DNA of 64,000 nucleotides from Leuconostoc pseudomesenteroides KCTC 3652 (GTDB lineage: Bacteria; Bacillota; Bacilli; Lactobacillales; Lactobacillaceae). The position numbers and the translations under genes were made by a program. The notes under the pieces were generated by a model. The model made no database searches. It had not been told where the DNA came from and worked only from the letters and a program-made list of their open reading frames with translations. Below, piece after piece: positions 314 to 54,976 of the stretch; the stretch's first letter is position 1; each line of letters opens with the position of its first letter. The stretch is from assembly GCF_014634745.1 (NCBI RefSeq), contig NZ_BMBP01000001.1, positions 248,001-312,000 of the forward strand, in the 5' to 3' direction.

Positions 314-818
314 TACATTTACACATCAATTAATTGAACAAAATATTAAAATTGGTGATTTGGTTTTGGATGGGACAACAGCTAATGGCGTTAATACACG
401 CTTTTTAGCAACGCGTGTTGGTAACGAAGGCCATGTATTGAGCTATGCAACCACAAAAGATAACGCCAACGCCGCAGCCGCCTCACTCTTCATGAGCGGT
501 TTATCAGAACGTGTCACTTTGCTTGGCCACCAAATTACACCACAATTACGTACTGATATGGGCGAACGAAAACAAATTAGTGTTGCAATTTTTGATTATT
601 CGTCTGATACAGAAAACACACATGATCAGCCCTCAAATCTGATTGATCAAATTTCGTTAGTTTTGCCAAAACTAACGCATGGTGGTCTCTTGATTACAAA
701 ATTTAATGCAACGCCAGAAGATTGGCTAGATTATTTGTCAGAACTTATTCCAGAAGATTTCAGTCAAGCTAACTATACGACATCCACAACTCAGACATTT
801 ATCATCGAAAGGATTTAA
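294..818 (+). CDS. YtqB/MnmM-like SAM-dependent methyltransferase
   Basis: This is a 174-residue class I methyltransferase of the YtqB (MnmM) type. Characterised members methylate the wobble uridine of certain tRNAs. The glycine-rich SAM motif is present near residue 25 as LDGTTANGVNTRFLA, and an acidic strand end and a C-terminal Phe-Asp-Tyr segment follow. The start at 294 is chosen because AAAGGAG lies 7 nt upstream; an in-frame ATG at 255 has no ribosome site and lies inside the PAP2 gene. The gene overlaps the PAP2 gene and is followed 2 nt later by the cyclophilin gene, so the three form one operon. The sequence is diverged, so the tRNA role is inferred. Confidence 0.65.
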   Translation: MMIPSSNTFTHQLIEQNIKIGDLVLDGTTANGVNTRFLATRVGNEGHVLSYATTKDNANAAAASLFMSGLSERVTLLGHQITPQLRTDMGERKQISVAIFDYSSDTENTHDQPSNLIDQISLVLPKLTHGGLLITKFNATPEDWLDYLSELIPEDFSQANYTTSTTQTFIIERI

Positions 819-23734: not shown

Positions 23735-24436
23735 ATGGACATCAATGATTACGATAAAATTTTACGAACAAATTTTCAAGTCAATAGCTTCGCACTTAGC
23801 CTTTTACGCGATGGTTTACTCGTTAATTTATTACAAGAAGACTATCCTCACATTCTGTACTGGGCTGGAAAAGAGATTGCACGCCAATTTCCAACTGATA
23901 CTTTAACTTCTGTCAAAGAATTTTTTGCTGATGCTGCTTTCGGCGATCTAGAAATCAAATCTCAAGATAGTAAAAATCAGCGCTGGGAGTTGACTGGCGA
24001 TCTAGTCAAGCAACGTCTTAGTCTGAATAAGAATGCTGATTTTAGTCTAGAAGCAGGTTTTTTAGCACAACAGCTTGAAGTTCAGACTGGTGCTATTGCT
24101 GAGGCAAATTTCAAGTATCTCAAAAAAAATGAAGGCGTTTCATTTGAAGTCGTAACTGACTTAACCGAAACAGTTAATGTCGAAGATATTAAGCAACGCG
24201 TTGCAGCTCGTGAAACTTTTTTAAAGAAAACACACGATACAACAGAAAATGCTACTATGATTGAGGTTCGCAATGATGATGACATTTCCCGCGAACAATC
24301 AATTACCGATTCCCTCTTAGCCTTTAATTTTGATGACACATTGATGCCCACCGAGGAACACTCTAGTCTGAGTGCTTTGTCCGGTGAAGAAATTGATCCA
24401 TTCAATGTACCCTCTCATCCAAATAAGAATCAATAA
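23735..24436 (+). CDS. YslB-like (DUF2507) protein with C-terminal extension
   Basis: This is a 233-residue cytoplasmic protein. Residues 8-140 match YslB/DUF2507, a V4R-like family (ILYWAGKEIARQFP, then FSLEAGFLAQQLE). The remaining 90 residues are acidic, Ser/Thr/Asp-rich and probably disordered; ordinary family members end near residue 150. AAAGGA precedes the ATG, and TATAAT lies 21 nt before it. Linkage to murI is conserved in Firmicutes, but the function is unknown. The gene ends at a large-loop terminator. Confidence 0.8.
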   Translation: MDINDYDKILRTNFQVNSFALSLLRDGLLVNLLQEDYPHILYWAGKEIARQFPTDTLTSVKEFFADAAFGDLEIKSQDSKNQRWELTGDLVKQRLSLNKNADFSLEAGFLAQQLEVQTGAIAEANFKYLKKNEGVSFEVVTDLTETVNVEDIKQRVAARETFLKKTHDTTENATMIEVRNDDDISREQSITDSLLAFNFDDTLMPTEEHSSLSALSGEEIDPFNVPSHPNKNQ

Positions 24437-24506
24437 AAACCACTAATTTTTATACATTACAGTGCCTCTTCCAGCCGCTTGTACATGTTTAAATTAGTGG
24501 TTTTTA
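24434..24506 (+). terminator. Large-loop terminator of the YslB-like gene
   Basis: A perfect 15-bp stem AAAAACCACTAATTT / AAATTAGTGGTTTTT encloses about 41 nt. Confidence 0.75.
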
Positions 24507-24524
24507 TTATTATATTTTTTTATA

Positions 24525-24661
24525 ATAAAAAATCCCTTGACCTAAGAGGGGGATGGTCAAGGGAATTGATAGCCGAAGCTATCGGTGTTCAACCAGTAAT
24601 TGGGGGAACTGATTGAAACATTACTGGGGGGAGTAATGAAACTCAAATGTTATTTGAGTAT
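24525..24661 (-). ncRNA. Candidate small RNA with three C-rich hairpin loops
   Basis: This 137-nt intergenic RNA reads on the minus strand. TATAAT at 24668-24673 places the start near 24661 (the -35 is weak). In order from the 5' end: stem ACTCAAAT/ATTTGAGT (24641-24659); a 7-bp stem with an exact CCCCCC loop (24619-24638); an imperfect 8-bp stem with loop TCCCCCAATT (24590-24615); GATAGC-TTCG-GCTATC, a stable UUCG tetraloop only in this orientation (24568-24583); and a 10-bp stem with loop ATCCCCCTCTTAG (24532-24564) followed by T6, an ideal terminator. No ORF is present. The C-rich loops could pair with Shine-Dalgarno sequences, as known for Listeria LhrC, streptococcal csRNAs and staphylococcal UCCC-loop RNAs. 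Homology to those is not claimed. This stretch and the flanking terminator fill the 323-nt gap between genes. Confidence 0.7.
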
Positions 24662-24667
24662 GTTTCT

Positions 24668-24673
24668 ATTATA
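24668..24673 (-). promoter_or_regulatory. -10 box of the candidate sRNA
   Basis: A perfect TATAAT on the minus strand, 7 nt upstream of the first hairpin region. No good -35 is visible. Confidence 0.45.
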
Positions 24674-24759
24674 GACCAACTATGACCAAAAAAAGTATCT
24701 ACATTTTGACAAAAACATTACAGAAAAATTACGTTAAAACTTGTCACATAAGTTAACAA

Positions 24760-26115
24760 TTACACAATTAGATTCAACAATAGAACCATTCCCAGTCCCA
24801 CAACAGCAATGATTGTCTCTAATACAGTCCATATTTGCAGTGTTTGCTTAACATTTAAATCAAAATATTCTTTAAACATCCAAAAGCCAGCATCATTGAC
24901 ATGTGAAAATGCTAACGATCCAGCTCCAATAACCAATACCATCAAAGCGGGATTGATACCTGAAGCCGCCATCAACGGCTGGACAAGCCCTGCCGCGGTT
25001 AAGGCAGCTACCGTAGCAGACCCCAATGCAACACGTAATAATACAGTAATTAACCAAGCCAAGATCAGAGGCGAAATTGCTGAATGAATGAACAAATCGG
25101 AAATTTGTTTTGAAATGCCACCATCAATCAATATTTGTTTGAAAGCAGCACCTCCACCAATAATCAATAACAACATAGCGATTGATTTAACAGCATCTTC
25201 AACCGTTACCATCATATCTTTTGTAGCACGACCTTGATGCCATCCCATTGCCCACAAAGCAAATACCAAAGAAATAATCATTGCAGCAACCGGGTTTCCA
25301 ATCATAGTAATGAAAGCGTCAATTCCCTTCGGGTTTTTAAAAGGTTGACCATCATTGTAGATAATTGTGTAAATGGTCGTAATTCCCATTAATAAAACAG
25401 GAAACAATGACGTCAAAACTGAAATACCAAAACTGGGTGTCTCATTAATTTGAAAAGTCTTTTGTTGCCCAAATGCCGTTAATTGCTTTTTAACTACAAA
25501 AGCATCTGGTGCAAATTTCTGTGCTAATTTTGTAAAAATCGGTCCCGCAATAATAGCAGCCGGAATGGCCACGATTAAGCCATACACTAATACAGTTCCC
25601 GGATTAGCACCTAGTGCCCCCGCAATCGCTGTTGGTGCTGGATGAGGCGGCAAAAAACCGTGCGTTACTGACAAAGCAGCAGCCATTGGAATACCAAGAT
25701 AAAGTAAAGGCACTGAAGCTTCTAAAGCAATCGCAAAAACAATCGGAATCAGTAACACCATGCCCACTTCAAAGAATAACGCAATACCTATGATAAAAGC
25801 CGCGACCATAATTGCTAACTGAACACGCTTTTTTCCAAATTTAGCAATCAGTGTGTGTGCAATACGATAAGCACCACCGGCATCAGCGACTAATCTTCCT
25901 AATACTGCACCAAAGCCAAACACAATGGCCAATTCACCAAGGGATGAACCAATACCATTTTGAATTGAAGTGGGAATTTGATCCAGTGGCATACCTAATC
26001 CCGCGCCAACTAGAGCAGCAGTTAAAATCAGTGAAATAAAAGTATTAATCTTAAACTTGATAATCAAGACTAATAAAAATAGGATGCCCAATCCTAAAAC
26101 AACAAATGACATCAT
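24760..26115 (-). CDS. Gluconate:H+ symporter (GntP family)
   Basis: This 451-residue permease imports gluconate or a related sugar acid with protons. It has 12 or more hydrophobic segments and the GntP signatures FGFGAVLGRLVADAGG, ALFFEVGMVLL, THGFLPPHPAPTAIAG and FSHVNDAGFW. Starts at 26121, 26115 and 26112 are in frame; AGGAGA is 6 nt before 26115, while 26121 abuts it. No gluconate kinase or GntR regulator is adjacent. A perfect cre site lies upstream, so CcpA repression is likely. The candidate sRNA lies downstream on the same strand. Confidence 0.9.
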   Translation of the reverse strand: MMSFVVLGLGILFLLVLIIKFKINTFISLILTAALVGAGLGMPLDQIPTSIQNGIGSSLGELAIVFGFGAVLGRLVADAGGAYRIAHTLIAKFGKKRVQLAIMVAAFIIGIALFFEVGMVLLIPIVFAIALEASVPLLYLGIPMAAALSVTHGFLPPHPAPTAIAGALGANPGTVLVYGLIVAIPAAIIAGPIFTKLAQKFAPDAFVVKKQLTAFGQQKTFQINETPSFGISVLTSLFPVLLMGITTIYTIIYNDGQPFKNPKGIDAFITMIGNPVAAMIISLVFALWAMGWHQGRATKDMMVTVEDAVKSIAMLLLIIGGGAAFKQILIDGGISKQISDLFIHSAISPLILAWLITVLLRVALGSATVAALTAAGLVQPLMAASGINPALMVLVIGAGSLAFSHVNDAGFWMFKEYFDLNVKQTLQIWTVLETIIAVVGLGMVLLLNLIV

Positions 26116-26145
26116 ACGCATTCTCCTAAACAATATGTTATTTTT

Positions 26146-26159
26146 TGTAACCGCTTTCA
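26146..26159. promoter_or_regulatory. cre site upstream of the gluconate permease
   Basis: TGTAACCGCTTTCA matches every position of the CcpA consensus TGWNANCGNTNWCA, 31 nt before the start. Confidence 0.75.
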
Positions 26160-26202
26160 TTTTATCACACAATTCATATTTGTGGTTAAATTTTGTCGCA
26201 AA

Positions 26203-54604: not shown

Positions 54605-54976
54605 GAAAAACGTCCTCTTACAACGATTTTATCATTGCAAGAGGACGCTAAAGCGTGGTGCCACCCCAAGTTTAAGTTTTGTTCACACAAAACTTCTCAA
54701 TCAGTCAATCTACTACTAAACAAAAACGCCTTCTAAATACAATTAGTATTTAGAGGGCGTTTAACGCGGTACCACCTCTTGATTATGTTGCCATCACTGT
54801 CAACACCTCAATCAGTCAAAGACTGTATGCAATAACGGGCATCACCGGCATGACCTACTCAATTCAATCATTCACTCGCGAATGTGGTTCATCAATCATA
54901 GTTGCTTGCTCACACCAACCGCAAACTCTCTTAATACTATGAAAAATTACTCTTTCGCTCAACGTTTTATTATATG
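54605..54976 (-). promoter_or_regulatory. T-box riboswitch with duplicated antiterminator/terminator module
   Basis: A T-box leader on the minus strand, filling most of the 453-nt gap before the permease gene. Stem I: base GCGAA/TTCGC, AGTA and GAA of the specifier-loop S-turn, stem CATAGT/ACTATG, GGTTGGTG distal region. Module 1: CTCAATCAGTCAA complement (54807-54819), Stem III, T-box GGTGGTACCGCG (54765-54776), terminator 54722-54762. Module 2, 111 nt further: the same 13-nt element (54696-54708), its own Stem III, T-box GGTGGCACCACG (54654-54665), terminator 54606-54648. Only one Stem I exists. Uncharged tRNA is expected to relieve termination and turn on the transporter. Confidence 0.92.

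Follow-up and report, generated by a model that had tools for sequence, protein, structure and literature searches.

The 64,000-nucleotide stretch of Leuconostoc DNA analysed here (the window) contains, between a GntP-family permease gene and a DUF2507 protein gene, a gap whose minus strand can form a row of hairpins with C-rich loops, which raises the question of what this gap encodes, how it is controlled and on what it acts. It is almost certain that the gap holds a real, conserved small RNA (sRNA) gene. The best explanation of its features is an LhrC-like, trans-acting anti-Shine-Dalgarno (anti-SD) sRNA under a cell-envelope two-component system, with WalR as the first candidate regulator, a reading to which we give a probability of about 0.78. 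The gene, its fold, its conservation and covariation, the preference of its loops for translation starts and the match to LhrC models were computed, while transcription, repression, the regulator, the targets and independence of Hfq are what we infer.

Gene, fold and genomic setting

The features of the locus are as follows.

24525 to 24661, minus strand: small RNA gene of about 137 nt with five hairpins and an intrinsic terminator (fold z -9.07; found in 19 of 19 genomes of the genus; 122.8 bits with model R3, in whose own alignment the window sequence sits)
24641 to 24659, minus strand: hairpin 1, without a C-loop (minimum free energy (MFE) fold; both-sided changes in 7 of 7 pairs among 33 members)
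24619 to 24638, minus strand: hairpin 2, with loop CCCCCC at 24626-24631 and a near-invariant stem (MFE fold)
24588 to 24617, minus strand: hairpin 3, with loop TCCCCCAATT at 24598-24607, counterpart of LhrC stem-loop A (alignments; 8 of 8 pairs change on both sides)
24568 to 24583, minus strand: hairpin 4, with a cUUCGg loop on the minus strand only (MFE fold)
24533 to 24564, minus strand: hairpin 5, the terminator stem, with loop ATCCCCCTCTTA at 24543-24554 (12 nt in the MFE fold; 9 of 9 pairs change on both sides)
24527 to 24532, minus strand: T6 run of the terminator (sequence)
24668 to 24673, minus strand: -10 box TATAAT, six bases before 24661 (sequence; first three letters invariant in 19 aligned promoters)
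24717 to 24733, minus strand: direct repeat CGTAAT-N5-TGTAAT, a probable WalR-type response-regulator box at -56 to -72 from the assumed start 24661
24695 to 24711, minus strand: third and fourth half-sites (24706-24711 and 24695-24700), in 11-bp phase with the box (promoter alignment)
24760 to 26163, minus strand: upstream neighbour, a GntP-family permease gene (Pfam PF02447)
23735 to 24436, plus strand: convergent neighbour, a DUF2507 protein gene (Pfam PF10702)

The MFE of the RNA (24520-24665) is -46.3 kcal/mol, compared with -19.7 (sd 2.9) for 200 dinucleotide shuffles, none of which folds as low. The original prediction, made from the letters alone, is upheld on most points of structure: five hairpins follow one another on the minus strand in the order it gave, hairpins 2, 3 and 5 carry C5-C6 loops (the loop of hairpin 5 being one base shorter than the 13 nt it proposed), hairpin 4 has a UUCG tetraloop in the minus orientation only, hairpin 5 and its T6 run form a terminator by both sequence and fold, and TATAAT precedes the 5' end, at six bases rather than 7 nt. 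The UUCG of hairpin 4 is kept in 9 of 19 relatives and absent from the other 10 (alignment A2), and the loop of hairpin 5 reads CCCTCTT in 18 of 19 sequences and CCCTCTC in one.

As had been proposed, no open reading frame explains the stretch. Each of the three minus-strand frames is interrupted within 24525-24661, and the length of the C-runs differs between species, which would shift a reading frame, so a coding gene was rejected. A repeat or mobile element was rejected as well, the genome holding one copy (BLAST; R3 at E<=10) and its other eight BLAST matches having E values of 0.65 or worse. A simple promoter and terminator scan picked up neither the promoter nor the terminator of the sRNA, because it accepts only promoters with a -35 hexamer, poorly formed at this locus, and terminators whose loop spans 3-8 bases.

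The neighbourhood is variable. Beyond the GntP permease gene, on the same strand and upstream of the window RNA, lies rplS (L19), which is the gene directly upstream of the RNA in most other Leuconostoc; gntP does not precede the RNA in 18 of 20 Leuconostoc-type loci, the exceptions besides the window being L. falkenbergense and L. fallax. Including the window, three lineages have a GntP permease gene adjoining the RNA (the others being L057 and L183), with different paralogues and orientations; that of the window was identified by Pfam, and those of L057 and L183 are presumed to be such from resemblance. Between the sRNA and the DUF2507 gene, 24431-24509 forms a stem of roughly 19 bp that closes a large loop, itself structured in part (minus-strand z -6.4), which in its predicted fold looks like a two-way terminator. 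Elsewhere in the window, a T-box leader scoring 113 bits lies at 54750-54971 on the minus strand.

Covariation of the stems and constancy of the loops

The original prediction set compensatory change in the stems against random drift, and the comparison of relatives falls on the side of the former: stems change by compensatory pairs while the C-loops stay. Within Leuconostoc and L. fallax alone the stems hardly vary, with both-sided changes in 4 of 31 pairs, a count that rises to 19 of 31 when five Weissella sequences are added. In the alignment of 33 members, both-sided changes occur in 26 of 31 pairs and 95.8% of cells are paired, values that none of 500 shuffles reaches and that compare with 31-39% paired for slid versions, although the alignments, including A5 and A6, were fitted to their own structure model, which favours structure. 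Stems 1, 3 and 5 have been rewritten, whereas stem 2 is almost constant (its seven pairs are all fixed in 19 sequences, and two show both-sided changes in the set of 33); stem 4, whose pairs lie outside the count, varies freely on visual inspection. Plain MFE folding without any alignment gives five or six hairpins in 51 of 52 members, and 678 of 846 bases in runs of at least four C lie inside hairpin loops, compared with 0.20-0.30 of bases overall (group means), all of these members having been found with structure models.

Distribution across the order

By BLAST, the RNA was found in all 19 genomes of the genus. Within a family sample of 201 genomes, 18 match at E<=0.01, nine of them at length (eight of the genus plus L. 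fallax) and nine over only 21-39 nt. A pattern scan of named genomes returned 24 stretches, comprising 13 Leuconostoc records and 11 unrelated organisms, the pattern being short enough to allow chance matches in the latter.

Structure models extended this range considerably. Model R1, built from 19 Leuconostoc and L. fallax sequences (L035 was excluded from alignments A2 and A3 as a copy of L014), matches 30 of 350 family genomes at E<=0.05, namely 19 of the genus, L. fallax, 7 of genus g18, which is by inference Weissella, and 3 that were dropped on reading. Model R2 matches 28 of 28 genomes of g18 at E<=0.1 and 81 of 397 family genomes at E<=0.01; reading of 22 of its weaker matches, in 20 stretches from five genera, revealed CCCC- or CCUCC-type C-rich loops in 21, the match in g25 being the one without. 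Model R3, built from 33 members (Leuconostoc, L. fallax, Weissella and three further genera), matches 100 of 395 genomes of the order at E<=0.05, about 20 being expected by chance, whereas in a class-wide control sample 4 of 398 genomes match at E<=0.02, consisting of the window's own genome and three weak cases. C-rich loops are present in all 16 R3 matches chosen for reading (14 of them outside family f8), and families f5 and f9 and several genera share a loop that reads ACUCCUCCAAAGU or nearly so, containing CCUCC, the exact anti-SD. Model matches in L065, L066, L067 and L132 were dropped as ordinary terminators without C-loops. Genus g38 shows up to five matches per genome, with one in others of its genomes; L125, L170 and L179 are among the multi-copy loci.

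Relationship to LhrC and Ref84

LhrC of Listeria, which the original prediction had cited as an analogue, was recovered by models built without it, and a sequence-structure relation to LhrC is detectable by covariance model. Many R3 matches in family f8 form tandem arrays of about 200 bp, such arrays, with a copy every ~200 bp, being seen in Listeria (LhrC) at L160 1038-1984 and L161 1074-1819. The Rfam LhrC model (RF00616) assigns, at its gathering threshold, 3 of 10 f8 loci scanned plus L161, and R3 overlaps every Rfam LhrC copy in L161 (4/4), L159 (3/3) and L145 (1/1); in L156 the LhrC copy adjoins the R3 match rather than overlapping it. Even R1, which contains only Leuconostoc and L. fallax and was run on six chosen loci, overlaps 2 of 4 LhrC copies in L161 and matches four tandem, putatively LhrC-type copies in L160. 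R1 has no match in L159 (0 of 3 LhrC copies) or L168, and its single match in L145 is on the opposite strand (E 0.11).

In the reverse direction, RF00616 has no match to the window at gathering (110 bits) or at E<=5, and among five lactobacillus-type loci scanned at E<=10 it matches only L141 (25.3 bits, E 5.9). For the window and nine relatives' loci, assignment to a known Rfam family was rejected, there being only weak matches and none at gathering. The RNA is LhrC-like, yet lies outside RF00616 by Rfam's own rule. Of the UCCC-site pattern of LhrC, the counterparts of loop A and the terminator are present, hairpin 4 replaces the single-stranded site, and hairpin 2 is an extra C-loop hairpin.

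It is quite conceivable that this resemblance reflects convergence on C-rich loops and a terminator rather than common descent, an account with somewhat less than an even chance in our estimation. It would fit the missing RF00616 match and the three f8 alignments shown, in which hairpins 3 and 5 align with the LhrC-type stem-loop A and terminator and the hairpin 2 part is mostly skipped; it is opposed by the low E-values in many f8 copies, by the nearly empty class-wide control, and by two f5 loci found by R3 that may be intermediates between the families, as both also match Ref84 (45.1 and 41.8 bits, gathering 52) and, weakly, LhrC (33.0 and 31.1 bits), all below threshold.

Promoter architecture and the candidate regulator

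Neither the wide distribution described above nor the promoter repeat was foreseen in the original prediction. In 19 aligned promoters, a G is invariant at positions 44, 55, 66 and 77 of the first sequence, upstream of the -10 box, corresponding to an 11-base phase, and the autocorrelation of promoter conservation peaks at lag 11, followed by 22 (lags 3-24). In 18 of 19 promoters, YGTMAT-N5-YGTAAY describes the first pair of half-sites. TGTAAT-N5-TGTAAT is matched at 10 or more of 12 positions in 18 of the 19 Leuconostoc and L. fallax promoters (null 0.10 per promoter) and at 11 or more in nine (null 0.015), the species being related in both counts; the window box, CGTAAT-N5-TGTAAT, is one base off, and the full repeat occurs in L012, L014 and L015. 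The consensus of WalR/VicR is given in PMC4168254 as TGTWAH-N5-TGTWAH, with TGTAAT-N5-CGTAAT at Streptococcus mutans gbpB as a footprinted, high-affinity site. The hexamers of L037 and L038 are identical to that site. Judged by sequence, the promoter appears to carry the direct repeat that characterizes the WalR regulon. A genome scan for the WalR-type box found no enrichment (9 matches, compared with 10 for a reversed control), and definition of a WalR regulon by this route was dropped. A second CGTAAT-N5-TGTAAT box occurs at window positions 534-550 on the minus strand, inside a plus-strand open reading frame.

Gene order in Weissella offers a second line of evidence. In the four loci read (L180, L181, L182 and L188), the RNA gene directly follows a walK-walH-walI-walJ-htrA run on the same strand, with no walH frame called in L182 and walR inside the stretch in L181 and L188. 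In this run walR, walK and htrA were assigned by Pfam, and we take walH, walI and walJ to be such from place and sequence. Weissella promoters themselves are mixed, with the full TGTAAT-N5-TGTAAT in 4 of 26 and TTCACA-N5-TTCACA at 11 of 12 positions in 7 of 26. In other lineages, TTCACA-N5-TTCACA is found at 10 or more of 12 positions near the -10 box in 14 of 23 promoters (null 0.038), a count that leaves out the 26 of Weissella and one second g38 copy. The upstream regions of L162-L168 (Enterococcus-like and related) show this repeat shortly before a TATTAT-like -10, a geometry resembling that of CiaR with another regulator's site.

An OmpR-family regulator of the sRNA is probable, while its identity with WalR in particular, for which the repeat argues, is proposed tentatively and at slightly less than even odds. 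That the same sRNA and mechanism are driven by a different member of the family, LisR/CroR- or PhoP-like, is the less probable assignment, though one with some substance. Beyond the TTCACA repeats near the -10 of many lineages, it draws on LhrC, which requires LisR and in lhrC5 has its LisR-responsive element upstream of -53, according to PMC4132741, at the distance of the Leuconostoc box. The TGTAAT-type repeats fitting the WalR consensus in 18 of 19 Leuconostoc and L. fallax promoters and in 4 of 26 Weissella promoters, together with the walK-htrA gene order in Weissella, weigh against it.

Loop pairing and candidate targets

The original prediction also called for a comparison with ribosome-binding sites, and the C-loops do favour initiation regions over coding sequence. 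For 373 genes from 464 kb of the genome, with starts chosen mechanically, duplexes of -12 kcal/mol or lower were counted at starts and in a coding control. The three C-loop hairpins yielded 24 versus 3 (hairpin 2), 15 versus 3 (hairpin 3) and 24 versus 0 (hairpin 5), whereas hairpins 1 and 4 gave 0 versus 0 and 7 versus 6. The true 16S anti-SD yielded 21 versus 1 under the same test. For each of hairpins 2, 3 and 5 the preference exceeds that of all 10 loop shuffles, which prefer starts too, less strongly. Pairing with GGAGG, as originally proposed, needs correction: C5-C6 forms an imperfect duplex with that sequence and pairs best with GGGGG(A) and GAGGGG sites, while it is relatives in other families that display the exact anti-SD CCUCC. 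The C-loops, unpaired in the MFE fold and start-preferring, would thus expose SD-complementary sequence as an anti-SD sRNA should. Pairing of the loops with SDs is considered highly likely to be how the RNA works.

Candidate targets were sought through G-rich SDs. TGGGGG occurs 3-11 bases before ATG at 49 sites, including one on the opposite strand of the sRNA locus itself, and the reversed pattern at 16; of 30 of the 49 sites read, 14 are followed by an open frame of at least 76 aa. Within the window, the candidates are a VTT-domain gene (29123) and a PLD-domain gene (52333). The best cluster of candidates, a thiol-repair operon in L228 (1906-5741, minus strand), encoding MarR, Fe-S_biosyn, glutaredoxin, MsrA, MsrB, thioredoxin and Pyr_redox_2, has G5-G7 SDs at three starts within 2 kb, and hairpin 3 can be paired by hand with the thioredoxin start over 14 contiguous nucleotides with one G-U. 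The other 18 genomes hold only proteins 59-67% identical to its MsrA, the second copy in its own genome being 61% identical, and a crude scan of the loci of the other 18 species detected no G5 start with a frame longer than 60 aa. The operon thus seems absent from those species, as judged from the search with MsrA alone; it was rejected as a conserved target and kept as a lead.

A protein-binding decoy, in which the C-loop hairpins sequester an RNA-binding protein and pair with no mRNA, would account for a stem and loop of hairpin 2 that are almost invariant, beyond the needs of loop pairing alone. It is nevertheless improbable, given that the loop type shifts between CCCC and CCUCC, both SD-complementary, that hairpins 2, 3 and 5 all favour starts over the coding control, and that the UCCC sites of LhrC serve mRNA pairing, as stated in PMC4132741 and PMC8079631.

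Proposed mechanism and significance

In the anti-SD reading, an OmpR-family response regulator, WalR being the first candidate, would bind the 11-bp-phased upstream repeats and drive a promoter with a good -10 and no clear -35. The 137-nt RNA would then fold into five rigid hairpins, and the C-rich loops displayed by 2, 3 and 5 would each be able to capture the G-rich SDs of mRNAs independently. Loop pairing, probably without Hfq, would keep the 30S subunit from binding and may leave the mRNA open to decay, and three loops could provide either a broad target range or contact with several mRNAs per molecule. PMC8079631 describes LhrC as pairing with ribosome-binding sites through its UCCC sites and its mRNA interaction as Hfq-independent, and PMC4132741 states that lactobacilli lack Hfq. 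A reading of the RNA as a structured 3' untranslated region, or as terminators stacked behind the upstream gene (gntP, or rplS in most other Leuconostoc), would explain its same-strand position downstream of such genes, but is very improbable, as the RNA has its own conserved -10 and phased repeats, the upstream gene varies by species and is htrA in Weissella, and termination needs no conserved loops.

More broadly, and with a joint confidence just short of one half, we suggest an undescribed, order-wide family of anti-SD sRNAs (Lactobacillaceae, Enterococcus and Listeria) built round a near-invariant hairpin, UUCAUU-ACUCC(C/U)CC-AAGUAAUGAA, of which LhrC and Ref84 would be the known tips, on which OmpR-family envelope regulators would act through 11-bp-phased repeats, and which in Weissella would be the RNA arm of the walRK-htrA locus. 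Were it such an arm, a translational repressor would be built into the essential cell-wall system itself, in bacteria that probably manage without Hfq.

Neither the literature matches listed nor the Rfam scans run included a described anti-SD sRNA that acts in trans in Leuconostoc, Weissella or other lactobacilli. The searches covered Leuconostoc sRNAs, C-rich-loop sRNAs, csRNA and LhrC in lactobacilli, the sRNAs of L. plantarum WCFS1, related genera, and WalR with sRNA, in a literature mostly outside subscription journals, and the RNA is undescribed among the matches listed; no paper was found on Ref84. If real, the RNA would be a conserved post-transcriptional regulator of industrially central bacteria and a ready test system, with three separable binding loops and a single copy, so that one deletion suffices. 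The WalRK system may be tied to such an RNA, and the findings suggest that LhrC, known as a virulence-related RNA of Listeria, is part of an older cell-envelope stress design common to harmless relatives.

Comparison with known systems

Several known sRNAs share parts of this design. RsaE/RoxS and other UCCC-motif sRNAs of Staphylococcus and Bacillus have an SD-pairing C-rich motif (PMC4132741), and no RsaE/RoxS-type family is among the Rfam matches of the window. The regulator of the streptococcal csRNAs belongs to the OmpR family. Like the window RNA, the csRNAs, which form part of the CiaRH regulon, are small, SD-complementary and under a regulator that binds a hexamer-N5-hexamer repeat (PMC3091779); unlike it, they use an unpaired stretch between two stem-loops, and the CiaR box (NTTAAG-N5-TTTAAG, set some ten bases before the -10) is absent from the sequence upstream of 24673 as read directly. 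Ref84 of Enterococcus (RF02846) is linked to the RNA by the two f5 loci with sub-threshold matches and by the loop ACUCCUCCAAAGU, and differs in having two hairpins, a CCUCC loop and TTCACA repeats.

LhrC (RF00616; LhrC1-5, Rli22 and Rli33-1) comes closest. According to PMC4132741 and PMC8079631, it consists of two stem-loops joined by a single strand and occurs in five almost identical copies, whereas the window RNA is single-copy, folds into five hairpins and has no Rfam LhrC match. LhrC is induced by LisRK in envelope stress, and the box of the window RNA resembles WalR sites instead. Both carry several redundant C-rich sites, including the terminator loop, and a two-component regulator element at about -55 to -75, and loop A of LhrC, UUUCCCCUUUUA in L161 and UUCCCCCUAUUA in an f8 copy of L145, has its counterpart in UUCCCCCAAUUA of hairpin 3. 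The locus is very probably a gene for a C-loop regulatory RNA that blocks ribosome docking and links Leuconostoc and Weissella to a stress-response RNA of Listeria.
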